Shown here in pieces: positions 46,720-61,710 of a stretch of 64,000 nucleotides of DNA (position 1 is the first letter of the stretch; each line of letters starts with the position of its first letter). Position numbers and translations under genes: made by a program. Below the pieces are notes generated by a model. The model saw only the letters and a list, made by a program, of their open reading frames with translations. It searched no databases and was not told the origin of the DNA. The DNA is from Tabrizicola sp. Its GTDB lineage: Bacteria; Pseudomonadota; Alphaproteobacteria; Rhodobacterales; Rhodobacteraceae. The stretch is taken from positions 62,001-126,000 of the forward strand of contig NZ_JAUCZH010000007.1 in the NCBI RefSeq assembly GCF_030373185.1, in the 5' to 3' direction.

Positions 46720-46971
46720 ATGAAACAAATTGCACGCACACCGAAGGACATCGGCCACGCCCTGCGCGCCGCGCGTAAGGCAAAGAAGCTCACTCAGGCG
46801 GAGCTAGCCAGCCGCTCCGGCATCTGGCAGCGCACCGTCTCCACCATCGAGACCAATGCCAGCGGTGCGAAGCTTGACACGGTCTTCGACCTTCTCGCCG
46901 CACTTGACCTCGAAATCCAGATCGTACCGCGCAGCAAGATGAAGCCTGGCGAGCTTGAGGACATCTTCTGA
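46720..46971 (+). CDS. hipB: HipB-type antitoxin, HTH regulator
   Basis: XRE HTH (LRAARKAKKLTQAELASRSGIWQRTVSTIETNASGAKLDTVFDLLAALDLEI); abuts hipA. Confidence 0.9.
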   Translation: MKQIARTPKDIGHALRAARKAKKLTQAELASRSGIWQRTVSTIETNASGAKLDTVFDLLAALDLEIQIVPRSKMKPGELEDIF

Positions 46972-48314
46972 TGGGCCGTAAACGGACTTACGCGCCGCTC
47001 GATGTCTTCATGAACCGCCGCAAGGTCGGGCAGTTCTTCCGCGAGCCTGACGGGGCATTTGCCTTCGACTATGCGCCTGAGTGGCTGGACTGGAGCAACA
47101 CCCTGCCAATCTCGCGCTCCCTTCCGCTGCGAAAGGAGCGCTATGTTGGCCCGCCGGTCATAGCCGTCTTCGACAACCTGCTGCCCGACAATGACGATAT
47201 CCGCAGACGCGTTGCTGAACGCATCGGCGCAGACGGGCTGGATGCTTACAGCCTGCTCGCTCGCATCGGACGGGACTGTGTGGGCGCTTTGCAGTTTTTG
47301 CCGGAAGGCGAAGTCCCAGAGGCTTCAGAAGGCCTGAGCGGTGAGCCCCTGAGCGACGATCAGATCGCCGCCATGCTGAAAGACCTCAAACTTACGCCGC
47401 TCGGCATCCGGCGAGAGAATGACTTCCGGATTTCGGTCGCCGGTGCGCAGGAAAAGACAGCGTTGCTCTTTCATGATGGGCAATGGATCGAGCCCACAGG
47501 CACGACGCCAACAACGCATATTTTCAAGCCTGCCATCGGCAGGCTGCCGAACGGGATGGACTTGACCGACAGTATCGAGAACGAGCATTTCTGCTTGCGG
47601 TTGCTGGCTGGTTTCGGCTTGCCGGTTGCCAGCACCGAGATTGCTACCTTCGCAGACACGAAGGTGCTGATCATTGAGCGCTTCGACCGGCTGCGCACTC
47701 GCGACGGAAGGCTGATCCGCCTGCCGCAAGAGGATTGCTGCCAGGCACTGTCTGTGCCGCCGACGCGCAAATATCAGAATGAAGGCGGTCCTGGGATCGT
47801 CGAAATCTGCGAACTGCTCCAAGGGAGTGACGAGCCGCTCCGCGACCGCGCCAATTTCTTCAAGGCCAATGTGCTGTTCTGGCTGATCGGCGCTACAGAT
47901 GGTCACGCCAAGAACTTCAGCATAGCACTAACACCAGGCGGGCGTTTTACGATGACCCCGCTCTATGATGTCCTCACCGTGCAGCCAACGCTGGAGGCGG
48001 GTCAGCTTCAGATCAAGGACATGAAGATCGCAATGCGGGTGGGCAAAAGCCGCCACTACAAGGTCTCGGAAATTCTGGGGCGTCACTTCATCGAAACAGG
48101 TCTGGCCGCAGGATTTTCGCGCGAGCAACTTGGTCAGATTTTCAAGGAAATCGAAGCAGACGCCGAAAAGGCGTTTGCCGAGGCCTTAGCGCAGATGCCT
48201 GCGGGCTTCCCCGCCGGACTGGTCGAATCCGTCAAGCGCGGGTTCGACCAGAGGATCGCGCGCCTCCTCGGTCAAGTCGGTCGCTGCCTGATAGCGCGCA
48301 AGGTCGAAGAGTAG
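46971..48314 (+). CDS. hipA: HipA-type Ser/Thr kinase toxin
   Basis: FRISVAGAQEKTALLFHDG, HIFKP, RFDRL, LIGATDGHAKNFS, PLYDVL motifs intact. Confidence 0.95.
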   Translation: MGRKRTYAPLDVFMNRRKVGQFFREPDGAFAFDYAPEWLDWSNTLPISRSLPLRKERYVGPPVIAVFDNLLPDNDDIRRRVAERIGADGLDAYSLLARIGRDCVGALQFLPEGEVPEASEGLSGEPLSDDQIAAMLKDLKLTPLGIRRENDFRISVAGAQEKTALLFHDGQWIEPTGTTPTTHIFKPAIGRLPNGMDLTDSIENEHFCLRLLAGFGLPVASTEIATFADTKVLIIERFDRLRTRDGRLIRLPQEDCCQALSVPPTRKYQNEGGPGIVEICELLQGSDEPLRDRANFFKANVLFWLIGATDGHAKNFSIALTPGGRFTMTPLYDVLTVQPTLEAGQLQIKDMKIAMRVGKSRHYKVSEILGRHFIETGLAAGFSREQLGQIFKEIEADAEKAFAEALAQMPAGFPAGLVESVKRGFDQRIARLLGQVGRCLIARKVEE

Positions 48315-48563: not shown

Positions 48564-48899
48564 GCCCGCACCAACTGGACCACCTCGCCCGAGGTGGCGC
48601 CTGTAGCGAACCGAGACCAAGCGTTCATCAGATCGCCGAACCGCACTTAGGAGGCCTCACTTCAGCAGCCATCCGGGCTGTGGCATCCAAATCCGGTTCG
48701 CACCAAACCTGATAGATGACGGTGAGCTGCAAGGGCCGGTGCCGGTAGCAAATAGCGCTCTCACTGATGCAGACGTGCAGCGGCAGTGGAAATCCGCAGC
48801 AAATGCCCCATGCGCGATACCGGCATTCGGGACTCAGAAATTGCCAGCAAAAGAAATTTCTAACGATTTTAGATATACTTAAGCCTGCCATGGCAGTTC

Positions 48900-48915
48900 T
48901 GGCACGAAATATGCT
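48900..48915 (+). promoter_or_regulatory. Candidate sigma54 (-24/-12) promoter of the P450 cluster
   Basis: TGGCACGAAATATGCT; GG-N10-GC spacing correct, one mismatch to TGGCACGN4TTGCW; 36 nt upstream of the P450 ATG. Confidence 0.7.
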
Positions 48916-48951
48916 CACAGGAAGGAAAGAGGCCAAACCTGGAAGACCGCC

Positions 48952-50157
48952 ATGACCGATGCTCCGCTTGCTGATGCTGCTTACCTAAACGTCGCTGACC
49001 CTGATTTTTCAATCCGCTCTCAACAGGTCAGCGATGCGCGAGCGCGCAATTGGTATGCCCGCACGCCCTATGGCCTTGCAGTGCTGCGCTATGACGAAGT
49101 GCAGAAGATGCTGCGCCATCCGAAACTGCGGCAGGGAAGCCATCTTTGGCCGCAGCACAATGGCGTGACGGACGGCAAGTTCGCGACATGGTGGTGCAAC
49201 ATGCTGCTTTGCGTCGAGGGCGACACGCACGGGCGCCTGCGGCGGATGGCGAACCCGGCGTTCAGCCCCAAGCTGATTGCCGATCTGCAGCCCAAGTTTC
49301 AGGTGCTGGCAAACCGATTGATTGACGCCTTCATCGACCGTGGGACATGTGACTTCATCGCCGAGTTCACCGAACCCTATGCCACGGGGGTGATCTGCGA
49401 CCTGCTTGGCTTGCCGTTTGAGAAATGGCGCGAACTGGCCGATATTGCCGCCGACATGGGGCTGGCGCTGGGGGTGACCTTCAAGCAAGACCTTCCGAAG
49501 ATCGAAACCGCCGTCGCCCGCCTATTCGATTACGCCGAACAGCTGGTGATCGACCGCGAGGCCAACCCGTCCGAAGATTTCATCGGCCTGCTGGTCAAGG
49601 CCAACCGCGAAAATCCGGATCAGCTGTCGCGGCAGGAAATGCTGGACATGATCGTGCTGGCCATCTTTGGCGGCATCGACACCACGCGCAACCAGATCGG
49701 GCTGGCGATGGACATGTTCGTGCAACACCCCGACCAATGGGCGCTGCTCGGCGACCGGCCCGAACTGGCGAAAGCCGCGGTCGAAGAGGTGATGCGCACC
49801 CGCCCGACCACCACCTGGGTCACCCGCGCCGCGACCGAGGATTTCGAATTTCAGGGCCTGAAAATCGCCGAAGGCACCACGCTGCATCTGTGGGGTCAAG
49901 CGGCAGCAATGGACCCTGCGGCGATGGAGAATGCCGAAAGTTTTGACATCACCGCCGCGCGCAAACCGCATTTCGGCTTTGGCGGCGGCACGCATCATTG
50001 CCTTGGCCACTTCATCGCTCGCGGTGACATGACGGCGGCTTTGGCGCTGATGGCGGCCCGGATGAAGAACCCGCGTTTTGCCGGCGAGGTAGTATGGCTG
50101 CCCGATAGCGGCAATACGGGCGCAGTCAGCATGCCGTTGGCTTTCGACAAGGCATGA
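48952..50157 (+). CDS. Cytochrome P450
   Basis: I-helix AIFGGIDTTRNQIG, EEVMR (ExxR), heme loop HFGFGGGTHHCLGHFIAR. Confidence 0.97.
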   Translation: MTDAPLADAAYLNVADPDFSIRSQQVSDARARNWYARTPYGLAVLRYDEVQKMLRHPKLRQGSHLWPQHNGVTDGKFATWWCNMLLCVEGDTHGRLRRMANPAFSPKLIADLQPKFQVLANRLIDAFIDRGTCDFIAEFTEPYATGVICDLLGLPFEKWRELADIAADMGLALGVTFKQDLPKIETAVARLFDYAEQLVIDREANPSEDFIGLLVKANRENPDQLSRQEMLDMIVLAIFGGIDTTRNQIGLAMDMFVQHPDQWALLGDRPELAKAAVEEVMRTRPTTTWVTRAATEDFEFQGLKIAEGTTLHLWGQAAAMDPAAMENAESFDITAARKPHFGFGGGTHHCLGHFIARGDMTAALALMAARMKNPRFAGEVVWLPDSGNTGAVSMPLAFDKA

Positions 50158-50190
50158 TGCGGTGAAATGTCAATAAAACTGGGGTTTTGA

Positions 50191-50379
50191 ATGAAGGTTC
50201 ACGTCGATATGTCGATCTGCCTGCTGCATGGACAATGCGTCATTGCGGCCCCGCAGGTGTTTTCCTTCAATGATGACGGCGGTCTGGTCTGGATTGCCGA
50301 TTGCGACGAAGGCTTGCGCAGTGATGCCGAGGCCGCCGCCGATGCCTGCCCCGAGCAGGCCATAGTGATCGACGGCTGA
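50191..50379 (+). CDS. Small ferredoxin ([3Fe-4S] type)
   Basis: MKVHVDMSICLLHGQCVIAAPQVF...AADACPEQAIVI. Confidence 0.93.
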   Translation: MKVHVDMSICLLHGQCVIAAPQVFSFNDDGGLVWIADCDEGLRSDAEAAADACPEQAIVIDG

Positions 50380-50381
50380 CG

Positions 50382-51587
50382 GTGGGTCCGCGCGTCCTTG
50401 TCATTGGGTCCTCACTGGCCGGGTTGCGCAGCGCCGAGGCGGTGCTGGCGGCACTGCCGGACGCGCGGGTCACGCTGGTAGGCGACGAGCCGCACGCGCC
50501 CTACAATCGCCCGCCCTTGTCAAAGGAGGCATTGGCCGGGCTAGTTGCGGGCGACGCAGGGCTGGACAAGCTAACCTTCCGGCACCGGCTGGACGCAGGC
50601 GCGGTAACGTGGCGGTTGGGGGCGCGGGCGATCTCTGTCGATGCGGCGAACCGTGCCGTTCGGCTGGGCGATGGCGAGGCGCTGCCCTATGACTGGCTGA
50701 TCGCCGCGTCGGGCCTGCGGCCCCGACGGCTGGCCTTTCCGGGGGGCGAGGCGCGGCATGTGCTGCGCGGCATTGACGATGCCCGGCAGCTGGCGGCAGC
50801 GATACGCCCCGGCGCGCGGATGCTTGTGGTCGGTGCCGGGTTCATCGGTTGTGAACTGGCCGCAACGGCGATGAAGCTGGGCCTTTCCGCAAGCGTGATC
50901 GAGCCGGCAGCACAGCCGATGCTGGCGGCTCTGGGGCCAGATGTGGCTGCGGCGATGGCCGGTTTTCATCGGGCGCGAGGGGTGGATCTGCGCTGCGGCC
51001 TATCGGTCACCGGGGATGAGAACGGCGCGCTGATCTTGTCGGACGGCAGCCGGATCGACGGGGATCTGACGGTCGAGTCGGTGGGATCGGTGCCGAATGT
51101 CGAATGGCTATCCGGCGCCGGGCTGGATCTGACGAATGGTGTCTTGTGTGATGCCACGCTGACCGCACTGGGCAGCGACCGCATCCTTGCCGTGGGCGAC
51201 GTGGCGCGCTTTCCGAACGCGCTGTTCGACGCCACGCCACGCCGTGTGGAACATTGGTCGATCCCCGGTCTGACCGCCAGACGCGCTGCCGAAACCATCG
51301 CGGCGCGAACCGCCGGGGCAGAACCGCCAGCGCGCTTTGCCCCGCTGCCCGGCTTTTGGAGTGATCAGCACGGGCTGCGGCTGCAAAGCTTTGGCGCGCC
51401 CGGTCTGGGCGACGAAATTCGGGTGCTGGAAGGCGAGTTGGCCGCCGTTGGCCAATCACCCTGTCTGGTCGAATACCGCCGCGCAGGGCGGCCCGTCGGC
51501 ATCCTTGGCCTTGGTGCTGCACCCGCTGCACTGGCGCAGCACCGCGCGCGCCTTGATCGCGTCTTGAATGAAGCAGTGGCGGCATGA
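50382..51587 (+). CDS. NAD(P)H:ferredoxin reductase (FAD)
   Basis: GTG start; VIGSSLAGLRSAEAV, PYNRPPLSKEAL, LVVGAGFIGCELAATAMKLG, ILAVGDVARFPN. Confidence 0.93.
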   Translation: MGPRVLVIGSSLAGLRSAEAVLAALPDARVTLVGDEPHAPYNRPPLSKEALAGLVAGDAGLDKLTFRHRLDAGAVTWRLGARAISVDAANRAVRLGDGEALPYDWLIAASGLRPRRLAFPGGEARHVLRGIDDARQLAAAIRPGARMLVVGAGFIGCELAATAMKLGLSASVIEPAAQPMLAALGPDVAAAMAGFHRARGVDLRCGLSVTGDENGALILSDGSRIDGDLTVESVGSVPNVEWLSGAGLDLTNGVLCDATLTALGSDRILAVGDVARFPNALFDATPRRVEHWSIPGLTARRAAETIAARTAGAEPPARFAPLPGFWSDQHGLRLQSFGAPGLGDEIRVLEGELAAVGQSPCLVEYRRAGRPVGILGLGAAPAALAQHRARLDRVLNEAVAA

Positions 51588-52924
51588 ACCGCACCGAAAG
51601 GGAGAGTGTGATGACGGACCTGAAGGACGCTCTGGACCGGCTTGGCGCCGAGGTTGTGCATGTGGGGCAGTTCGACCTTGCCTCGGTCTTCCGCGAGCGC
51701 CGCCTGCGCCGGGCACAGTTCGTGCAATGGGCCGAAGACCCGCGCTTTGCCAATGTGATCGCGCATTGGGACATCGCCGACAGTCTGTTCGGCGGCAACC
51801 GGTTCTACACCGAAACGGTGGAAATCGACTCTTCATCGATCCGGCGCAACCCCAGCGAGCCGGGCGCGGTAACGATGATCGCGGAATTGTCCGGCGATGC
51901 AAAAGAGCTGATGCCGCGCCAGGTGCTGCGCCGCCAGATCGAGCGGGCGGCGAAGATGGGGTTCAAGGTGGATGCCGCCTTTGAATTCGAAGTGATCCTG
52001 CTGGACGAAGACGCGCAATCGGTGCGGGCCAAGGGATTTGAAGGCCTGCAGAAATTCGCCCCCGACAACAAATGCTGGTCCGGCACCACGGCCAATGCCG
52101 AAGCCGCCTTCATTGCCGCGTTCGAGGCCGAAGTGCTGGGCCACGACATTGCGCTGCACGGCCTTGGCGTCGAATTGGGGCCGGGCTGTCTGGAAGGCAC
52201 GCTGGCCGCGACCGAAGGGCTGCGCGCGGCGGATGATGCGGCGTTCTTCCGTCTGGCCGCAAGGTCCTTTGCCCGCAAGCACGGCAAGACCGCCAGCTTC
52301 ATGCCCTATCTGGGTGCGGAATATCCCGGCATCGGCGGCCATTGCTGCCTGTCCTTGCGCGATGCGAAAACCGGCAAGAACCTGTTCTCCAGCCCTGATG
52401 GCAAGACCAATGCGCTGGCCGGCCAGTTCATCGCCGGCATGATGGAGATCGTGCCGCAAGCCTTCGCCATGTGTACCAGCACGGTGAACGCCTATCGCCG
52501 TCTGGCTCCGGGCAGTTGGGCGCCGAAATCGCTGACTTGGGCGGAGCATCCCTTTACCGTGGCGGTGCGGTCCGCGCCGCATGCGGGGCCGTCGGCGCGG
52601 CTGGAATTCCGGGTGCCGCCCGCCGATTGCAACACCTATCTGACGCTGGCGATGATGCTGGGTGCCGGGCTGGACGGGATTGAGCGCAATCTGCCCGCCC
52701 CGGCTGCCACCCTGTCCGGTGGGCCGGACCATGTGCCCGAAGGCGCCCAGCGCTTTCCCCGCGACCTTGCCGATGCCGCCGACCGGATGGCCGACAGCGC
52801 CACCGTCCGCCGCATCTGGGGCGATGCCTTTACCGACAATTTCGTGGCCGCCTGCCGCGCCGAATACGCCAGCCTCGCCAAAGCGGTCAGCGCCGAAGAG
52901 CGCGCCCGCTACCTTGAGGCCTAA
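51584..52924 (+). CDS. Glutamine-synthetase-like ligase 1, divergent active site
   Basis: GS catalytic fold features (FEFEVILLDE, STVNAYRRLAPGSWAPKSLTWAEH, RLEFRVPPADCNTYLTLAMMLGAGLDGIE). Confidence 0.88.
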   Translation: MNRTERESVMTDLKDALDRLGAEVVHVGQFDLASVFRERRLRRAQFVQWAEDPRFANVIAHWDIADSLFGGNRFYTETVEIDSSSIRRNPSEPGAVTMIAELSGDAKELMPRQVLRRQIERAAKMGFKVDAAFEFEVILLDEDAQSVRAKGFEGLQKFAPDNKCWSGTTANAEAAFIAAFEAEVLGHDIALHGLGVELGPGCLEGTLAATEGLRAADDAAFFRLAARSFARKHGKTASFMPYLGAEYPGIGGHCCLSLRDAKTGKNLFSSPDGKTNALAGQFIAGMMEIVPQAFAMCTSTVNAYRRLAPGSWAPKSLTWAEHPFTVAVRSAPHAGPSARLEFRVPPADCNTYLTLAMMLGAGLDGIERNLPAPAATLSGGPDHVPEGAQRFPRDLADAADRMADSATVRRIWGDAFTDNFVAACRAEYASLAKAVSAEERARYLEA

Positions 52925-52945
52925 GAGACAACAGGGAGAAAAACA

Positions 52946-54424
52946 GTGCATACCGACACCGACTATCACCGCGATATCGAAGCCCCCGGCCGGGCTGAAC
53001 TGGTCAATCGCGTGCGTCAGAAGATCGACGCCATGGGGATCGACTATATCTATTACCAATACATCTCGATCACCGGACGGGTGATGGGCAAGGCCGCCCC
53101 GGCGCGCCACTGGGAGACGCAGGCCCGCAAGGGGGTGCAGACCTGGATGGGCGGCGTGGCCAACGTAACGCCGGATTTCAAGGGCAATCTGATCGGTTTC
53201 GATTCCAACGCGATGGAATGCATCGCGCTGCCGGACCCCGATACGTTTTGCCAATTGCCTTGGGACAAGCGGATCGCCCGTGTCTTTTGCACGCTGTATT
53301 ACAGCCTTGAAGACTACACCTCTCCCGGCCAGTATTACGAACATGATACGCGCGGAAACCTGAAGCGGTTCGACCAGCAGTTCCGGGCCGATCACAACGG
53401 CCTGCACCTGCGGGTTGGGCTGGAACCGGAAATGGTCTGGCTGACGCCCAAGGATGGCGAAGTGCGCCCCTATGACGGCATCACCGAGCCTTTCGCCTAT
53501 CACATCGGCCAGTTTGAAAACGCCCGCGAGGTCTGGAAACAGGTGTCAGACTATGCGCTGGCCATGGGTCTGGACATGATTCAGGGCGATTGCGAAGACG
53601 CCCCCGGCCAGATCGAGCTGAACTACCAGTTCGACGACGCCCTGCCCACCTGTGACCGGATGACGACCTATCGCCAGATCTGCGCCGAAGTGGCCCGCCA
53701 GCGGGGCCTGATCGCCTGTTTCATGGCCAAGCCCTTCATGGGCTATGCCGCCAACGGGTGCCATCACAACTGTTCTGTCTGGACCGGCGGATCGCGCGAG
53801 ATGCAGCAGCTGGTGCCCGGCGACTTGCCGGGGATGGAAGAGCTGTTCCACTATTCCAAAGGCGGCGTGAACGAATTTGAGAACAAGGACGGCGGCTGGT
53901 TGCCGACAGAACTGGGCCACCATATTCTGGGTGGCAGCCTGAAACACATTGACGCGCTGACCTGCCTTGGGGCCTCTACCGTCAACAGTTATCGGCGGTT
54001 CAACGATTATGGCCTCTGGGCACCGATCGGGGCCAACTGGGGATTGCAGAACCGCAGTTGCACCATCCGCATCTCTTCGCCCGACCGGTTCGAATTCCGG
54101 GCAGTAGACAGCATGGTCAACCCGCACCTGTTCTGCGGCGCGCTGCTGAAGGCGATGGATGACGGCATCAAGAATAAGATTGACCCCGGCCCCCCCGAAA
54201 CGCGCAATGTTACCACGGTTTGGCAAGCTGGCGAGCCGGTAAAGCTGATTCCCTTGAACCTGCATGATGCGCTGGAGGCCCTGAAGAGGGACGAGGTGGT
54301 CAAATCAGCGCTTCCCGGACGGCTTTATGAGGTGTTCGATGACTACAAGCGCGATGAATGGACCCGGTTCCTGCGCGAAGTCACCAACTGGGACGTCGAG
54401 CGCTATCTGCATTGCGTGCCGTAA
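52946..54424 (+). CDS. Glutamine-synthetase-like ligase 2 (gamma-glutamylamide synthetase / GlnT-like)
   Basis: GTG start with AGGGAG; GLEPEMVWLTP, GDCEDAPGQIELNYQF, GYAANGCHHNCSVW, STVNSYRRFNDYGLWAPIGANWG. Confidence 0.9.
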   Translation: MHTDTDYHRDIEAPGRAELVNRVRQKIDAMGIDYIYYQYISITGRVMGKAAPARHWETQARKGVQTWMGGVANVTPDFKGNLIGFDSNAMECIALPDPDTFCQLPWDKRIARVFCTLYYSLEDYTSPGQYYEHDTRGNLKRFDQQFRADHNGLHLRVGLEPEMVWLTPKDGEVRPYDGITEPFAYHIGQFENAREVWKQVSDYALAMGLDMIQGDCEDAPGQIELNYQFDDALPTCDRMTTYRQICAEVARQRGLIACFMAKPFMGYAANGCHHNCSVWTGGSREMQQLVPGDLPGMEELFHYSKGGVNEFENKDGGWLPTELGHHILGGSLKHIDALTCLGASTVNSYRRFNDYGLWAPIGANWGLQNRSCTIRISSPDRFEFRAVDSMVNPHLFCGALLKAMDDGIKNKIDPGPPETRNVTTVWQAGEPVKLIPLNLHDALEALKRDEVVKSALPGRLYEVFDDYKRDEWTRFLREVTNWDVERYLHCVP

Positions 54425-54457
54425 CAGCCCGCACCGGGCGACAGAAAAGGAGACGAC

Positions 54458-55645
54458 GTGACGCGAACACCCCCCCCCTTCCCGTTCAAGTCGGGCCGGA
54501 TGGTCGATGTCTTGTCATCCGATGGCAGTTTCGTGTCCATGGATGACGCTCAGGCCGCACGTCTTGGGGGCGCGGATCTGGTGGGTCAGCCTTGGGCGCG
54601 GGTCTACACGCTTGAGGCGCGCGAACGTATCGCGGCGCAATTCTCCCTTCTGTCGCCGCTGCCGAGGGTTCTTCCGCTGACCCTGCGGGCGGCAGATGGC
54701 ACGCTGGTGCCCACCACGGCGGTGGCCGAGCTTTTTGACAATCCCGGGCGCGGGCTTTGCCTGCGCCTGTGCAAATGGCCTGCGGGCAGCGATCTGGATG
54801 ATGTGGCCACCCTGGCCGAAGCGAACGAGGTTCTGTCGGGCATCGTCGCGGCATCGGCCGATGCCGGGTGGTGCATGGAATGGGCCGATCCGGTGGATCT
54901 GTCCGCGCCCGAGCATGAGATCGTCCGTCAGGTGTTCGAGAACGGCCCGCGCTGGCGGTTCTGCAATGACGCCATGGCGCGACTTTATCGCACACCGCCG
55001 GGCGCGGATTTCAATGATCGTCCGGTAGCCGAAACCTTTCCCCGCACGCCGGAAAACGAGGATTTCATCCGCCGCCTGATCCGCGCGGATTTCGACATGA
55101 ACGGGTCGCCGTCGCGCGATCTGCGGTATGACGGGCTGTTCATCGACGTGGAAAACGATGTCCGTGGGCATATTCGCGGCAATCGGTTGTTCCGCATGTG
55201 GGGCACGGTCCGCGATGTATCAAAACACATCCGCCGCGAGACCGAACTGCGCGATGAGATTGCCTTTTTGCAGGTGGTGCTGGCCGCCCTTCCCGACCCG
55301 GTGCTGGTGCTGGACAGCGAAGGAAGCATGGTCTTTGCCAACATGGCCGCCGAGGCACTGTTCGAAACCCCTTCAGACCGGCTGAGCCTGCGACGCTTTG
55401 ACGATCTGATCGAAGTGGCAGGATCCTTGGCGGGGCTTTTTGCCGATGCGCGCGTGTCCGCCGTCTCCACCGCCCGAGAGCCTTTTGTCGCGCAAGTGCG
55501 GCTTCCCGGCGGCAGGGTGAAGGTCGAAGGAACGGCCCAGACCTTTGGGATGCGGGGCGATACCCTGCTGGCCGTTTGTCTGCGCCATGTGCCGCGCGCG
55601 GTGGAACGCGGTGCCCGCCTTTCTGCGATTGTGGGGGGCGGATGA
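54458..55645 (+). CDS. Multi-PAS-like sensory protein without recognizable effector domain
   Basis: GTG start; PAS-like segments including RDEIAFLQVVLAALPDPVLVLDSEGSMVFANMAAEALFE; ATGA overlap with next gene. Confidence 0.7.
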   Translation: MTRTPPPFPFKSGRMVDVLSSDGSFVSMDDAQAARLGGADLVGQPWARVYTLEARERIAAQFSLLSPLPRVLPLTLRAADGTLVPTTAVAELFDNPGRGLCLRLCKWPAGSDLDDVATLAEANEVLSGIVAASADAGWCMEWADPVDLSAPEHEIVRQVFENGPRWRFCNDAMARLYRTPPGADFNDRPVAETFPRTPENEDFIRRLIRADFDMNGSPSRDLRYDGLFIDVENDVRGHIRGNRLFRMWGTVRDVSKHIRRETELRDEIAFLQVVLAALPDPVLVLDSEGSMVFANMAAEALFETPSDRLSLRRFDDLIEVAGSLAGLFADARVSAVSTAREPFVAQVRLPGGRVKVEGTAQTFGMRGDTLLAVCLRHVPRAVERGARLSAIVGGG

Positions 55646-57027
55646 GCATGTCACGCCCCCCACAAGCCCTTGACGGCGCCTCGGCCGCCGAGCGTGACCG
55701 GGCGCGGCTTTTGCTGGCAGCGTTTGATGCGTCGCCCGATGGAATCGTGGTGCTGGATCCTGCCGCCCGCGTCGTGCAGATGAACCGCGAAGCTGCAGCG
55801 ATTGCGGGTCTGTCCGCCAAGGGCGTGATCGGCCGGCCGTTGCCCGAGGCGGCCCCCGACAGCCCGCTGAACTGGACGCCTGTTCTGGAGATGCTGGCCG
55901 AGGCGCGCACCGGCGAGGTTATCATCCGGTCCGAAACCATCGGATCAATCTTTGTCACCCTGCGCCGTGTGGCAGAGGTGCCCGGCGCGGTCGTCATCAC
56001 CCTGCGCGATCTTGCGGTGCTGGATCATGCCCGGCGCATGGCTTCGGGGCAGCGCGATCCGGCCAGCTTCACCTCTACGGTCGAACGGCGCTTGCGGCCC
56101 GACTTCTCGCGCCAGCGCCAGCTGTCCCCCTATCTTGACCGGATCATCGCGCGTGGCGAGCGGGCGCTTTTGCAAGGCGCGCGCGTCATCATCACCGGTG
56201 AAAGCGGCGTGGGCAAAACCGAAATCGCCCGCCATCTGCACAGTTTCGTGGCCAATGCGACGGATCCATTTGTGGCCGTCAACTGCGCGGCCATTCCCGA
56301 AAGCCTCTTTGAGACCGAATTTTTCGGCTATGAGAAGGGCGCCTTCACGGGGGCGTCGACCGATGGCAAGAAGGGCCTGATCGAAGCCGCCGAAGGGGGC
56401 ACGCTGTTCCTGGACGAGATCGGCGAAATCCCCTTGACCATGCAAGCCAAGCTTCTGAGCTTTCTGGAAGACGGTCTTTTTCTGCGGGTGGGTTCCACCA
56501 AGCCGCGCCGGGTGAACATGCGCTTTATCTCGGCCACCAACCGCGACCTGCTGCAAATGTCGGAAGACCGCAGCTTTCGCGAGGATCTGTATTACCGGCT
56601 GGCCGTTGTGAACATGCCGATCAAGCCGCTGCGCGAGATGCCGGAACTGCTGGAACATCTGATCGAGCGGTTCCTGACGGCTATCAATCAACGCCGGACA
56701 ACACCGCTGCAAATCTCCGACAGTCTGATGCAGCGGCTGAAGGCCTATCGCTATCCGGGCAATATTCGCGAGCTGGCCAACCTTCTGCAACAGATCAGCG
56801 TTCTGGGCGATCACGAACAGGATTTGCCGCGCCGGCTGCAAAATCCGGTGCAGGTCGCAGATCCGGGCGCGGGCGGGGCGGGTACTCTGCGCGAGCGCAT
56901 TGCCGCCGTCGAGTCAAACATCATCGCTGCCGCAATCAAGGAGCATGGCAGCAAACGCAAGGCCGCGACGGCCCTCGGCGTCGATATCGGAACGATCGTA
57001 AGAAAGACCAAACGAAAAGAGCCCTGA
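55642..57027 (+). CDS. Sigma54-dependent activator: PAS, AAA+, HTH
   Basis: AAFDASPDGIVVLDPAARVVQMNREAAAI (PAS), GESGVGKTEIA, KGAFTGAS, GGTLFLDEIGE, RYPGNIRELANLL, AAIKEHGSKRKAATALGVDIGTIVRKTK. Confidence 0.93.
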   Translation: MSMSRPPQALDGASAAERDRARLLLAAFDASPDGIVVLDPAARVVQMNREAAAIAGLSAKGVIGRPLPEAAPDSPLNWTPVLEMLAEARTGEVIIRSETIGSIFVTLRRVAEVPGAVVITLRDLAVLDHARRMASGQRDPASFTSTVERRLRPDFSRQRQLSPYLDRIIARGERALLQGARVIITGESGVGKTEIARHLHSFVANATDPFVAVNCAAIPESLFETEFFGYEKGAFTGASTDGKKGLIEAAEGGTLFLDEIGEIPLTMQAKLLSFLEDGLFLRVGSTKPRRVNMRFISATNRDLLQMSEDRSFREDLYYRLAVVNMPIKPLREMPELLEHLIERFLTAINQRRTTPLQISDSLMQRLKAYRYPGNIRELANLLQQISVLGDHEQDLPRRLQNPVQVADPGAGGAGTLRERIAAVESNIIAAAIKEHGSKRKAATALGVDIGTIVRKTKRKEP

Positions 57028-57061
57028 ATGGGCCGGGCCTCAACCAACAAAGGAGAACACC

Positions 57062-58099
57062 ATGAAAAGAACATTGACCGCCACCCTTGCCCTGTCCTTG
57101 GCCGCAGGCCCCGTCTGGGCCGAAGGCACCGTGAACGTGCTGACCTGGGAGGGGTATACCGACGCATCCTTCATCGCCAAATTCGAAGAAGACAGCGGCT
57201 GCAAGGTCAGCGCCACCTATGTGGGCTCGAACGACGATTTTGCACCCAAGTTGATGTCTGGCGGCGGCGTCTATGACCTTATCACCCCATCCATCGACAC
57301 CACCGCGCTGATGATCGATCTGGGCGTGGTCGAGCCGCTGGACACGGCCGCCCTTGCCGGCTGGAATGACATCTATCCCAAGTTCCTTGCGCTGGAGGGC
57401 ATCCAGCGGGACGGGGCCTATTACGGGATGCCCTACAGTTGGGGCGCGATTGCCTTCATGTATCGCAAGGATGCCTTCACCACCCCGCCCACCTCGATCG
57501 CGGATCTGTGGAACCCCGAGCTGGCTGGCAAGATCTCGCTTTGGGATGACAAAAGCGCGATCTATGTCGCCGCGCGCAAGAATGGCGATATGGATATCTA
57601 CAACCTGACCGACGCGCAGATCGAAAACGCCAAGGCAGCACTTGTGGAACAAAAGCCGCTGGTTCGGAAATACTGGGCCACTGCCGGAGAGCTGGTTGAT
57701 CTGTACAAGGCGGGAGAGGTTGTCATCTCGAACACCTGGGCGGGCTATCAGTCCAGTCTGCTGGCGGCCGAGGGCATCGAGGTGGTGGAGTTCATCCCGA
57801 CCGAAGGCGCCGAGGGCTGGATGGACGCATGGATGGTGGTGAAGGAAACGCCAAACAAGGAATGCGCCTATAAGTTCCTGAACATGCAATTGTCCGAACA
57901 GGGGCAATGCGGCGTGGCCAATGTGAACGGCTATTCGGCGGTCAATGCGGCGGCGGCCAAGGCCTGCATGTCGCCCGAACAGTTTGCCGCCCTGCATCAG
58001 GATGATCCCGACTATCTGGACAGCCTGTTCATCTGGACCCCGCTTGGCGAACGGTTCGAAGCCTATACCAACGCCTGGAACGCCGTGAAGGCGCAATAG
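57062..58099 (+). CDS. ABC transporter substrate-binding protein (PotD-like)
   Basis: Signal peptide; VNVLTWEGYTDASFIAKFEEDSGCKV; PYSWGAIAFMYRKDAF. Confidence 0.93.
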   Translation: MKRTLTATLALSLAAGPVWAEGTVNVLTWEGYTDASFIAKFEEDSGCKVSATYVGSNDDFAPKLMSGGGVYDLITPSIDTTALMIDLGVVEPLDTAALAGWNDIYPKFLALEGIQRDGAYYGMPYSWGAIAFMYRKDAFTTPPTSIADLWNPELAGKISLWDDKSAIYVAARKNGDMDIYNLTDAQIENAKAALVEQKPLVRKYWATAGELVDLYKAGEVVISNTWAGYQSSLLAAEGIEVVEFIPTEGAEGWMDAWMVVKETPNKECAYKFLNMQLSEQGQCGVANVNGYSAVNAAAAKACMSPEQFAALHQDDPDYLDSLFIWTPLGERFEAYTNAWNAVKAQ

Positions 58100-58112
58100 G
58101 CCGGCAAGACCG

Positions 58113-58146
58113 GGCGGCGGCGGCCCGAATGTGGCACGCCGCCGCC
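58113..58146 (+). terminator. Intercistronic GC hairpin after the SBP gene
   Basis: GGCGGCGGC-16 nt-GCCGCCGCC, perfect 9-bp stem in the only large gap (78 bp) of the operon. Confidence 0.6.
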
Positions 58147-58177
58147 ATCACGACCGACAATTGGGGAACAGGCCGAC

Positions 58178-59275
58178 ATGGCAGCGATCATTGAGCTTCG
58201 GGGGCTCTCGAAGCATTATTCGAAAACCATCATCGGCGTCGACGATGTCTCGCTGTCTGTCGAAGATGGCGAGTTTGTCACCCTGCTGGGGCCTTCGGGT
58301 TGTGGCAAATCCACGTTGCTGCGGATGATCGGCGGCTTTGAAGAACCGACGCAAGGCACGATCCATCTGGCAGGTCGCGACGTGACATGGGAGCCGCCCT
58401 ACCGCCGCGAGGTGAATATGGTGTTTCAGGACTACGCCCTGTTTCCGCACATGACCGTGGGCCAGAACATCGCCTATGGCCTGAAGATGGCCGGTGCCGA
58501 CCGTAAATCCGCGCGCGCCAAGGCCCTTGAGGCGCTGGAGCTTGTGGGGCTGCCCGACAAGGTTGACCAGCGGCCGGACCAGCTTTCTGGGGGGCAGCGC
58601 CAGCGCATCGCGCTTGCCCGGGCGATCGTGCGCAGACCCAAAGTGTTGCTTTTGGACGAGCCGCTGTCAGCGCTGGATGCGCGGATGCGCGACCAGATGC
58701 GGATCGAGCTGAAACATCTGCACGAAAAGGTTGGCATCACTTTCATTATGGTCACCCATGATCAGGAAGAGGCGCTGACCATGTCAGACCGCATCGTAGT
58801 GATGGAGAACGGCCGCGTCGCGCAGGATGGGCAGCCGCAAGATATCTATGATCGCCCGATCTCTCCCTATGTTGCCAACTTTATCGGCACGACGAATTTC
58901 CTGCCTGCCACGGTGACCGATGTGCAGGCGGACCGCGCCACCTTTAACTGCGCCGGGGCGCGGCTGGAGGTGCTGACAGACACACCGCCGCAATCGGGCG
59001 CACGGGTGACGCTGGGCTTTCGCCCGGAAAAGACCCGCCTGCTGGCCGAGGGCGAGACCGCGCCCAACATGCTTGAGGGCAAGATTTCCGAAGTCATTTA
59101 TTATGGTCTTGGCTTGCGCACGGCAATCACGCTGCCCGATGGCGGCAGCCTGTTCATCGACACTTTGCTGACCGATACCCTGCGGCGCAGCGCCATTCCC
59201 AAGACCGGAGCCCCTGCCCGCGCCGCGGTAGAGCCGTGCAACATCTTTGTCTTTGCCGGCGAGGTGCAGGCATGA
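58178..59275 (+). CDS. ABC transporter ATP-binding protein (PotA-like)
   Basis: LLGPSGCGKSTLLRMIGGFEEP, LSGGQRQRIALARAIVRRPKVLLLDEPLSALDARMR. Confidence 0.95.
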   Translation: MAAIIELRGLSKHYSKTIIGVDDVSLSVEDGEFVTLLGPSGCGKSTLLRMIGGFEEPTQGTIHLAGRDVTWEPPYRREVNMVFQDYALFPHMTVGQNIAYGLKMAGADRKSARAKALEALELVGLPDKVDQRPDQLSGGQRQRIALARAIVRRPKVLLLDEPLSALDARMRDQMRIELKHLHEKVGITFIMVTHDQEEALTMSDRIVVMENGRVAQDGQPQDIYDRPISPYVANFIGTTNFLPATVTDVQADRATFNCAGARLEVLTDTPPQSGARVTLGFRPEKTRLLAEGETAPNMLEGKISEVIYYGLGLRTAITLPDGGSLFIDTLLTDTLRRSAIPKTGAPARAAVEPCNIFVFAGEVQA

Positions 59276-60138
59276 CCTTGCTGCGCCGTCACCTTGCAGG
59301 TGTGCTGGTTCTGGGCATTCCCCTGGCTTGGATCGTGATCTTCATGCTGGTGCCCTATGCGATCATCGGCACCTACAGCTTCTGGACCAAGACCTACCCG
59401 ACCTTCCAGCCAGACTTCCAGTTCGGCAATTACGCTACCCTGTTCACCGATCCGCAATATCTGCAGGTTCTTCTGCGCACGCTGAAGATCAGCGCGCTGG
59501 TGTCGGTGGCATCGCTGGCGCTGGCCTATCCCTTTGCTTATTGGCTGGTGTTCCGCTGCCGCTCGGCCGGGGTGCGGACATGGCTTTATATGGCCGTCAT
59601 CGCGCCCTTGTGGGTCAGCTATCTGCTGCGCGCCTATATCTGGAAGACCATCCTTGGCACCGAAGGCATCCTGAATTCGTTCCTGATGTGGGCCGGGTTC
59701 ACCGACGCGCCGTCTGACATCTTTCTGTATAACCAATTCGCGATGATCCTGACGCTGACCTATATCTTCATCCCGTTCATGGTGATGCCGATCTATACCG
59801 CGCTGGAGCGTATTCCGCCGAACCTTGCCGAAGCCTCGGCCGATCTAGGCCAGACCCCGTGGCAAACCTTTCGCAAGGTCACACTTCCCCTGTCCACACC
59901 CGGCATCGCGGCCGGGTTCACCCTGACGTTCTGCCTGTCGTTCGGCGATTTCATCGCCCCGTTTCTGGTGGGCGGGCCGGACGGCAACCTGATTGCCGGC
60001 GTGATCCAGACGCAGTTCGGCTCGGCACTGAACTGGCCGCTGGGGTCTGCCCTGTCCATCGTGATGCTGGTGATCGTGCTGTCGATCGTCTCGCTTTCAG
60101 ACCGGCTGGAACGGTCGTCCCGGATAGGAGCACATTAG
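59272..60138 (+). CDS. ABC transporter permease (PotB-like)
   Basis: Six-TM permease with EASADLGQTPWQTFRKVTLPLSTPGI EAA loop. Confidence 0.93.
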   Translation: MTLLRRHLAGVLVLGIPLAWIVIFMLVPYAIIGTYSFWTKTYPTFQPDFQFGNYATLFTDPQYLQVLLRTLKISALVSVASLALAYPFAYWLVFRCRSAGVRTWLYMAVIAPLWVSYLLRAYIWKTILGTEGILNSFLMWAGFTDAPSDIFLYNQFAMILTLTYIFIPFMVMPIYTALERIPPNLAEASADLGQTPWQTFRKVTLPLSTPGIAAGFTLTFCLSFGDFIAPFLVGGPDGNLIAGVIQTQFGSALNWPLGSALSIVMLVIVLSIVSLSDRLERSSRIGAH

Positions 60139-60139
60139 G

Positions 60140-60949
60140 ATGGCCCGCCGATCCTCTCGCAGTCTGATCTCGCGCTATGGAGCCGATACGGCCTTCATGA
60201 CCTTTGTGGCGCTGTTGATGGCATTTCTCTATGTCCCAATCTGGGTGCTGATCACCTTCAGCTTTTCGTCCTCGCGTTCACTGACCTGGCCCATTCCGGG
60301 TTTCACGCTGGACTGGTATCGCAAGCTGTTCGCCAACGCCGATCTGCAGACAGCGGTCTGGAACAGCTTTTACGTTGCCACCTTTGCCACCCTGCTGGCG
60401 CTGATGGTGGGCGTGGCGGCCGCCATGGCCCTGCACCGCTATGACTTTCCCGGCAAGACGCTGTTTCGCCGCCTGATCCTGTTGCCGATCACGCTGCCCG
60501 GCATTGTGACCGGCATTTCCATGCTGAACATGTTCAGCCTGTTCGGCTTTCCCCTGTCGCTGGAAACCGTGATCTTTGGTCACGCGACGGCGCTTTTGGG
60601 GGTGGTGGTGACGCAGGTCTACGCCCGCCTGCAACGCCTGCCGCGATCGCTGGCCGAAGCGTCCGGAGACCTTGGCGCCACGCCGCTGCGGACGTTTCTG
60701 TATGTCACGCTGCCCAACCTGCGCTCGGCCATCATCGGGGCCGGGTTGCTGTCTTTCGTGCTGTCCTTCGACGAGATCCCCGTTACCTTCTTCCTGACCG
60801 GCCGCGACAATACCCTGCCGATGTATATCTACTCGACCATGCGCCGGGGCGTGACGCCAGAGATCAACGCGGTTGGCACGCTGATCGTGCTGGCATCGCT
60901 GGTGCTGATCGTGATCTCAGTTGTGGTGACACGCGACAAACGGAGTTAG
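60140..60949 (+). CDS. ABC transporter permease (PotC-like)
   Basis: Permease with EASGDLGATPLRTFLYVTLPNLRSAI EAA loop. Confidence 0.93.
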   Translation: MARRSSRSLISRYGADTAFMTFVALLMAFLYVPIWVLITFSFSSSRSLTWPIPGFTLDWYRKLFANADLQTAVWNSFYVATFATLLALMVGVAAAMALHRYDFPGKTLFRRLILLPITLPGIVTGISMLNMFSLFGFPLSLETVIFGHATALLGVVVTQVYARLQRLPRSLAEASGDLGATPLRTFLYVTLPNLRSAIIGAGLLSFVLSFDEIPVTFFLTGRDNTLPMYIYSTMRRGVTPEINAVGTLIVLASLVLIVISVVVTRDKRS

Positions 60950-60957
60950 GGTCCCCT

Positions 60958-61710
60958 ATGCATTTGTGCATCTATGAGGCGGACCGCCCGACGCCTGAAG
61001 ATCAGGCGCGGTTTGGCAGCTATGCCGACATGTTCGAACGCTGGCTGGCACCTGCCTTGCCGCAGGCCCGGTTTTCGCGGGTCTTAGTCGCCGGGGGCGA
61101 AGCGCCGCCCGACCCCGGCGCTGTGGATGCGGTGCTGATCACCGGTTCGCGGGCTGGCGTGCATGACGGCGACCCCTGGATCGCCGATCTGAAGGCCCAT
61201 GTCGTCGCCCTCCGCGCCGCGGGCGTTCCGATGGGGGGAATCTGCTTTGGCCATCAACTGCTGGCCGAGGCCTTTGGCGGTCGTGTAAACCGCGCACCGG
61301 CAGGCTGGACCATCGGCCGACATCTGCATGCCGTTCAACCCGCCGGTCAGGCGCTCTTTGGTGCCACGCCCTTGGCTGCGCTGTCTTTCCATCAGGATCA
61401 GGTGATCGACGCCCCCCCGAGTGCAACAGGCATTCTGTCCTCACCTGCCTCGCCAAATGGCGGCCTTCGCTATGATTTTCCGGCGCTGTCGGTTCAAGTC
61501 CACCCCGAGCTTGACTCCGCTTATGTACGCGGCCTGCTGACCGGCACCGCAGTCACGGTCTTCCCGAAGCCCTTGGTCAAGACGTCGCTGGCCACCTTGG
61601 GCCTGCCGCTTGATGCTGCGGCGCTGGCCAAGGGTTTTGCCCGATTCTATCTGGCAAGCATGGAAAGCGCCTCTGAGAACCTTAAGGACATCGGCAAGCC
61701 AAACGGCTGA
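60958..61710 (+). CDS. Class-I glutamine amidotransferase-like hydrolase
   Basis: GGICFGHQLLAEAFGG nucleophile, VQVHPELDS His/Glu; triad intact. Confidence 0.93.
   Translation: MHLCIYEADRPTPEDQARFGSYADMFERWLAPALPQARFSRVLVAGGEAPPDPGAVDAVLITGSRAGVHDGDPWIADLKAHVVALRAAGVPMGGICFGHQLLAEAFGGRVNRAPAGWTIGRHLHAVQPAGQALFGATPLAALSFHQDQVIDAPPSATGILSSPASPNGGLRYDFPALSVQVHPELDSAYVRGLLTGTAVTVFPKPLVKTSLATLGLPLDAAALAKGFARFYLASMESASENLKDIGKPNG

Follow-up and report, generated by a model that had tools for sequence, protein, structure and literature searches.

We argue here that 12 adjacent plus-strand genes at positions 48952-61710 of a 64,000-nt stretch of Tabrizicola sp. DNA (contig NZ_JAUCZH010000007.1, positions 62,001 to 126,000; hereafter the window) from a 3.6-Mb genome probably constitute a catabolic operon under sigma54 control. 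Its substrate would be a small cationic amine, most likely secondary or cyclic, which it would break down by combining cytochrome P450 oxidation with gamma-glutamylation and release. From the gene content, conservation, promoter, residue patterns and P450 lineage that we observed, we infer the following reactions, substrate and order of steps. The ATP-binding cassette (ABC) importer would take up a small amine of the pyrrolidine, piperidine, morpholine or piperazine class, and the P450, working with its ferredoxin and reductase, would hydroxylate the carbon adjoining the nitrogen, leading to ring opening or dealkylation. Two glutamine synthetase (GS)-like ligases, GS1 and GS2, using ATP and glutamate, would cap the nitrogen to give a gamma-glutamylamide; an aldehyde dehydrogenase (ALDH), encoded in the operon in most relatives and presumably elsewhere in the genome here, would oxidise the gamma-glutamyl amino-aldehyde; and a class-I glutamine amidotransferase (GATase)-like protein would free glutamate and the amino acid. 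The P450-linked gamma-glutamylation of an amine, as the original prediction had it, thus gains inferential support from the loss of the ammonium site in both GS-like proteins and from the conservation of the genes as a unit.

The recomputed coordinates reproduced exactly the 12-gene content, the order and all the intergenic gaps quoted earlier (33, 2, -4, 21, 33, -4, 34, 78, -4, 1 and 8 bp), and the gene labels agree with Pfam and NCBIfam domain scans of the window. The P450 gene (48952-50157; p450 domain), which is probably CYP151-like and has an intact heme motif FGFGGGTHHCLG, is followed by genes for a small ferredoxin (50191-50379; Fer4_13/15) with the C-x2-H-x2-C...CP motif of [3Fe-4S] P450 partners, an NAD(P)H ferredoxin reductase (50382-51587; Pyr_redox_2 and Reductase_C), GS1 (51584-52924) and GS2 (52946-54424), both with Gln-synt_C. 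Then come a PAS-domain protein without recognised output domain (54458-55645), the probable sensor partner of the PAS-AAA+(sigma54)-helix-turn-helix transcriptional activator encoded next (55642-57027; Sigma54_activat, ATG at 55642), a PotD/PotF-like polyamine-type substrate-binding protein (SBP; 57062-58099), a PotA-like ABC ATPase (58178-59275), permease 1 (59272-60138; BPD_transp_1, ATG at 59272) and permease 2 (60140-60949), the last identified outside the domain scan by its counterpart gene recovered by BLAST in relatives (76-88% identical in syntenic loci). The final gene (60958-61710; GATase class I domain) encodes a probable gamma-glutamyl hydrolase with Cys in GGICFGHQ and His-x-Glu in VQVHPE. 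The 12 genes very probably form an operon. Its ends are clear, since a HipA-like gene (46971-48314, same strand; HipA_C and Couple_hipA) lies just upstream, and on the downstream side one first meets, among recognised genes, a sulfotransferase gene of the opposite strand; a search for a terminator 3' of the GATase gene found none.

This arrangement is not a matter of chance, as its order is conserved in other genomes. We searched genome contigs with a P450 alignment and obtained 80 P450 loci, 76 of which have a GS-like gene near the P450; both GS1 and GS2 are present in 38 of the 80, every one of them alphaproteobacterial. The ten-gene order from the P450 through ferredoxin, reductase, GS1, GS2, PAS protein, sigma54 activator, SBP and ATPase to permease 1 is kept in 20 other genomes, and four further loci are cut by contig ends. 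The co-occurrence of the P450 with the GS-like genes, and of the operon as a unit, which had been put forward as a check, is therefore real. The hosts include Gemmobacter, Thioclava, Salipiger, Sinirhodobacter, Antarcticimicrobium, Caenispirillum and Pacificispira. Caenispirillum belongs to a different order, and both the P450 tree and the GS tree place it within or next to the Gemmobacter group, so the cluster has moved as one block. Its presence is accessory: the P450 is absent from the one genus-mate tested, and a close P450 occurs in only one other genome among the 385 of the class sample. Ruegeria and Paracoccus have copies on plasmids.

The cluster also carries its own control, as had been claimed for it. 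A sigma54 (-24/-12) promoter, TGGCACGAAATATGCT, lies upstream of the P450 at 48900-48915 on the plus strand and is the only match in the window, where 0.12 are expected. As many as 30 of the 34 loci with PAS/sigma54 genes have a similar site within 150 bp before the P450, compared with none of the 31 loci without these genes and 1.2% of random 150-mers; the sigma54 promoter is thus conserved only where the activator gene is present. Further upstream, 134 bp before the -24 element, we noticed GATGC-N6-GCAGC (48766-48781). The corresponding palindrome GATGC-N6-GCATC (at least nine of ten matches, between -225 and -110) occurred in 18 of 33 sigma54-type loci, in one of 31 other loci and in 1.9% of random stretches. 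Support for it from these loci is partly circular, hence rows were held out, and 14 of the 25 held-out ones have it; we regard it as a candidate activator site. Nothing else in the promoter region beyond -24/-12 stood out as conserved.

We then considered what the two GS-like proteins may do, by aligning 41 GS1 and 77 GS2 rows to E. coli GlnA. The metal and ATP residues E129, E131, E212, E220, H269, E357, R321 and R344 are present in every row of both; R359 varies, being K in all GS2 of Pseudomonas type and in the majority of actinobacterial ones. The ammonium-site residues D50, S53, Y179 and E327, on the other hand, are gone in GS1 and GS2 rows alike: GS1 and proteobacterial GS2 have W at position 327, where actinobacterial GS2 has F, and position 179 carries C in GS1 rows and A in GS2 rows. 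Similar kinds of change are known from the amine ligases PauA7 (W296, A147), which GS2 of the window resembles in its W and A, and GlnA4 (F331) (PMC6529630). Both proteins thus show the residue pattern of GoaS-type ligases (metal and ATP residues kept; D50, E327 and Y179 lost), and from this likeness to characterised enzymes they are predicted to be gamma-glutamyl-amine ligases; as glutamine synthetases they were rejected on their active-site residues. They share with the GoaS-type ligases AtdA1, NpaA1, PauA7/PA5508 and GlnA4 a GS fold with a lost ammonium site, but the characterised ligases act singly on aromatic amines, ethanolamine or polyamines, whereas the window encodes a linked pair. 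The predicted structure of GS1 is a complete GS fold (pLDDT 85), the nearest structures being Methanosarcina mazei GS and 1-naphthylamine GS (8wwv; TM about 0.84 for the latter). In the GS tree, GS1 forms one clade and GS2 of P450 loci another, both apart from E. coli PuuA and from the other GS of the genome, with the reservation that the branches are long. Neither reaches the NCBIfam glutamine synthetase cut-off; the NCBIfam GGputSyn cut-off is uninformative, since E. coli PuuA itself falls below it.

The P450 is assigned by sequence to the lineage of mycobacterial P450s in pip/mor-type secondary-amine loci. The link between GS and P450 genes in mycobacteria, which the original prediction had mentioned, is indeed found: 33 of 297 Mycobacterium genomes carry a P450 52-59% identical to that of the window, and all 15 loci inspected have, next to it, a GS with about 40% identity to GS2. 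Ferredoxin was detected in seven of these 15 loci and ALDH in seven, and their layout is presumably that of the pip locus. Homologues were compared in place of PipA and MorA themselves, among them the P450 of Gordonia pGKT2 (56% identical), which we take to be the one named CYP151C. The pip/mor loci of mycobacteria (CYP151 PipA and MorA; piperidine, pyrrolidine and morpholine) share with the window the P450 lineage, a [3Fe-4S]-type ferredoxin and an adjacent GS-like gene, and in the window the ferredoxin, reductase and GS genes all lie downstream of the P450, as in CYP151 secondary-amine systems. They differ in that the window has a pair of GS genes together with a class-I GATase, an ABC importer and control by PAS/sigma54 proteins, whereas each mycobacterial locus has a single GS, and all 15 add to it C26 (PuuD-family) hydrolases and an amino-acid permease as well as a GntR/FCD regulator and a PDC sensor. 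Homologous P450 systems act on piperidine, pyrrolidine and morpholine; piperidine induces pipA in M. smegmatis, and the GS neighbours of Gulosibacter homologues are overexpressed on molinate (PMC9477822). In Pseudomonas loci, a P450 of proteobacterial type is paired with a GS of actinobacterial type in the respective trees, so the partnership has been re-made at least once. On Gordonia pGKT2, a GS2 homologue and an FAD/NAD reductase-like stretch form a single open reading frame (locus L040, 16328-18769) beside the P450 and another P450 gene; a link to the RDX P450 XplA on pGKT2 was considered and judged incidental.

The SBP is nearest to PotD/PotF-type proteins. It and all 25 close homologues retain PotD W34, Y37, D168, W229, W255, D257 and Y293, in keeping with the earlier claim of a dedicated amine importer, and all 25 have PotD E36, Y85 and E171 changed. 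Given what is known of PotD, this fits a ligand that is a cationic amine without the terminal primary amines of spermidine. For the last steps we compared 17 genomes, representing 16 strains (G046 and G937 are one strain), whose GATase is at least 44% identical to that of the window; no close GATase was found in Dongia, Aestuariivirga and a related Rhizobiales strain. In 14 of the 17 genomes (13 of the 16 strains) an ALDH gene, whose product is 49% identical to E. coli PuuC, lies between permease 2 and the GATase, directly before the latter. Salipiger, Defluviimonas and Salinihabitans have permease 2 followed by the GATase with no ALDH between, like the window, where the junction is reduced to 60950-60957.

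The GS pair is also found with other oxygenases. Of 385 alphaproteobacterial genomes, 39 contain a GS2 relative (at least 50% identical), in nearly every case with no such P450, and where GS1 adjoins such a GS2 the importer is shared (SBP 49-61%), sometimes with PAS/sigma54 genes too. In four P450-less loci (L149, 11522-12385; L151, 6532-7404; L152, 11772-12638; L153, 8021-8881) a gene of the PhyH family (Fe/2-oxoglutarate type) directly follows GS2, an apparent oxygenase swap, and PhyH-linked and P450-linked copies are interleaved in the GS2 tree, albeit on few rows. Elsewhere, on plasmid p2 of Paracoccus sp. TOH and in loci of Rhizobium type, a CYP151-like P450 and a flavodoxin/FAD/NAD diflavin reductase form one self-sufficient fusion (L039, 14983-17892; L084, 9677-12862). 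The p2 cluster shares P450, GS1, GS2, ALDH, GATases, PAS protein and sigma54 activator, but has this fusion, its own rpoN and glyA, and a major facilitator superfamily transporter in place of the ABC importer; its host may be a piperazine degrader. It is conceivable, though on balance doubtful, that GS1 and GS2 jointly, possibly as a mixed oligomer, act as a secondary-amine ligase and form a fixed core that is served by an interchangeable oxygenase (P450 with ferredoxin chain, P450-diflavin fusion or PhyH type) under one sigma54 switch. A further GS2 homologue without P450 stands beside an apparent class-II GATase, judged from its sequence start, and glutamate-synthase-like genes (L154, 9740-14493).

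The combination of functions is not new as such, contrary to what had been implied. On pTC1 of Paenarthrobacter aurescens TC1, the isopropylamine (ipu) locus (L236, 2242-10377: GATase, SDR, GATase, P450, ferredoxin, reductase, ipuC) has P450, ferredoxin, reductase, glutamylamide ligase and GATases in one run. Its P450 is only 27% identical to that of the window, and the annotated IpuC is 33% identical to GS1 and 24% to GS2, short of orthology, so that this locus is apparently an independent assembly of these functions. The novelty here lies in the form, with two ligases, an importer and sigma54 control, in its spread and in its interchangeable oxygenase, and the cluster enlarges the scheme known from mycobacterial degraders of pyrrolidine, piperidine and morpholine. 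A GS-like gene beside the piperidine P450 was reportedly noted in 1999 and left unexplained, and we came across no experiments on its role in the literature searched; the two-ligase operon, with its importer, promoter and PuuC-like ALDH, makes the role of P450-linked GS directly testable. It provides a connection, across phyla, between the breakdown of amines by P450s and gamma-glutamyl chemistry, offers a candidate enzyme family for cyclic amines (morpholine, piperazine, azepane), which are common industrial chemicals, and exemplifies a single pathway core combined with several oxygenase types.

Several observations weigh against the pathway as we propose it. A few related P450s have no GS nearby (L045, L118, L123, L126 and L133), and R339 is replaced in GS1 by F or Y (F in the window), which makes the activity of GS1 less certain than that of GS2. 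The PuuC-like ALDH of most relatives is absent from the window, so the idea that the cluster holds a complete pathway was not borne out; since the best ALDH matches in the host genome are only 41-45% identical, the function is either supplied elsewhere or the pathway ends differently here. Lastly, glutamylation comes first in the ipu, atd and npa systems that have been characterised. The same order here, in which GS1 and GS2 would make the gamma-glutamylamide, the P450 would hydroxylate the conjugate and the GATase would free the oxidised amine, is a serious though less probable alternative, which changes the sequence of events and leaves the kind of pathway the same. The single run of GATase, P450, ferredoxin, reductase and IpuC genes on pTC1 speaks for it, as does the pairing of GS1-GS2 with a PhyH-type oxygenase in place of the P450, a family whose substrates are often carboxylates; in the aniline and 1-naphthylamine systems, moreover, the ligase is required before the oxygenase (PMC11335346). 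We nevertheless lean somewhat towards the P450 acting ahead of the ligases: free morpholine itself is reportedly oxidised by the homologous MorA working with its ferredoxin and reductase (PMC9477822, citing Sielaff and Andreesen 2005), and the window P450 shares 52-59% identity with the mycobacterial family as against 27% with the pTC1 P450. The original view that glutamylation must come first is accordingly not supported.

A Puu-like polyamine pathway with the P450 in the place of PuuB would account for the PotD-like importer, the GS-like ligases, the PuuC-like ALDH of relatives and the GATase, and the two indeed follow one logic, in which a gamma-glutamyl cap is put on, an aldehyde oxidised and the cap hydrolysed off. 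Compared with E. coli, however, a P450 stands for PuuB, an ABC importer for PuuP and a class-I GATase for the C26 PuuD, and membership of the Puu pathway proper was rejected, as the cluster has no PuuA orthologue, PuuB, C26-type PuuD or PuuC-like ALDH. With PotD E36 and E171 lost in the SBP, GS1 and GS2 in clades apart from PuuA, related P450s tied to cyclic secondary amines, and no need of a P450 for primary polyamines, we consider such a pathway improbable. Of the substrates guessed at first (a polyamine, N-alkyl or cyclic amine), a small secondary or cyclic amine has therefore gained ground, and a polyamine is less likely.

It is still less probable that the GS-like proteins merely re-assimilate, as glutamine, the ammonia from a P450 pathway, although GS beside pip-type P450s has been so interpreted (PMC9477822): each of the 41 GS1 rows and every GS2 row has lost the ammonium site with the metal and ATP residues intact, neither protein scores as a glutamine synthetase, and seven further GS genes are present in the genome.

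A biosynthetic (secondary-metabolite) operon using the P450 and amide ligases, for which a more distant P450 (45% identical) within an ectoine-like biosynthetic cluster of Streptomyces might speak, is hardly credible given the dedicated importer, the sigma54 control, the ALDH and hydrolases of relatives and the lack of carrier, transferase or exporter genes within the cluster. That Streptomyces P450, plasmid-borne with its ferredoxin and reductase (L059, 11914-14669), lies among ectA/ectB/ectoine synthase-like and adenylation genes and may possibly serve in the biosynthesis of a cyclic amine or amidine.

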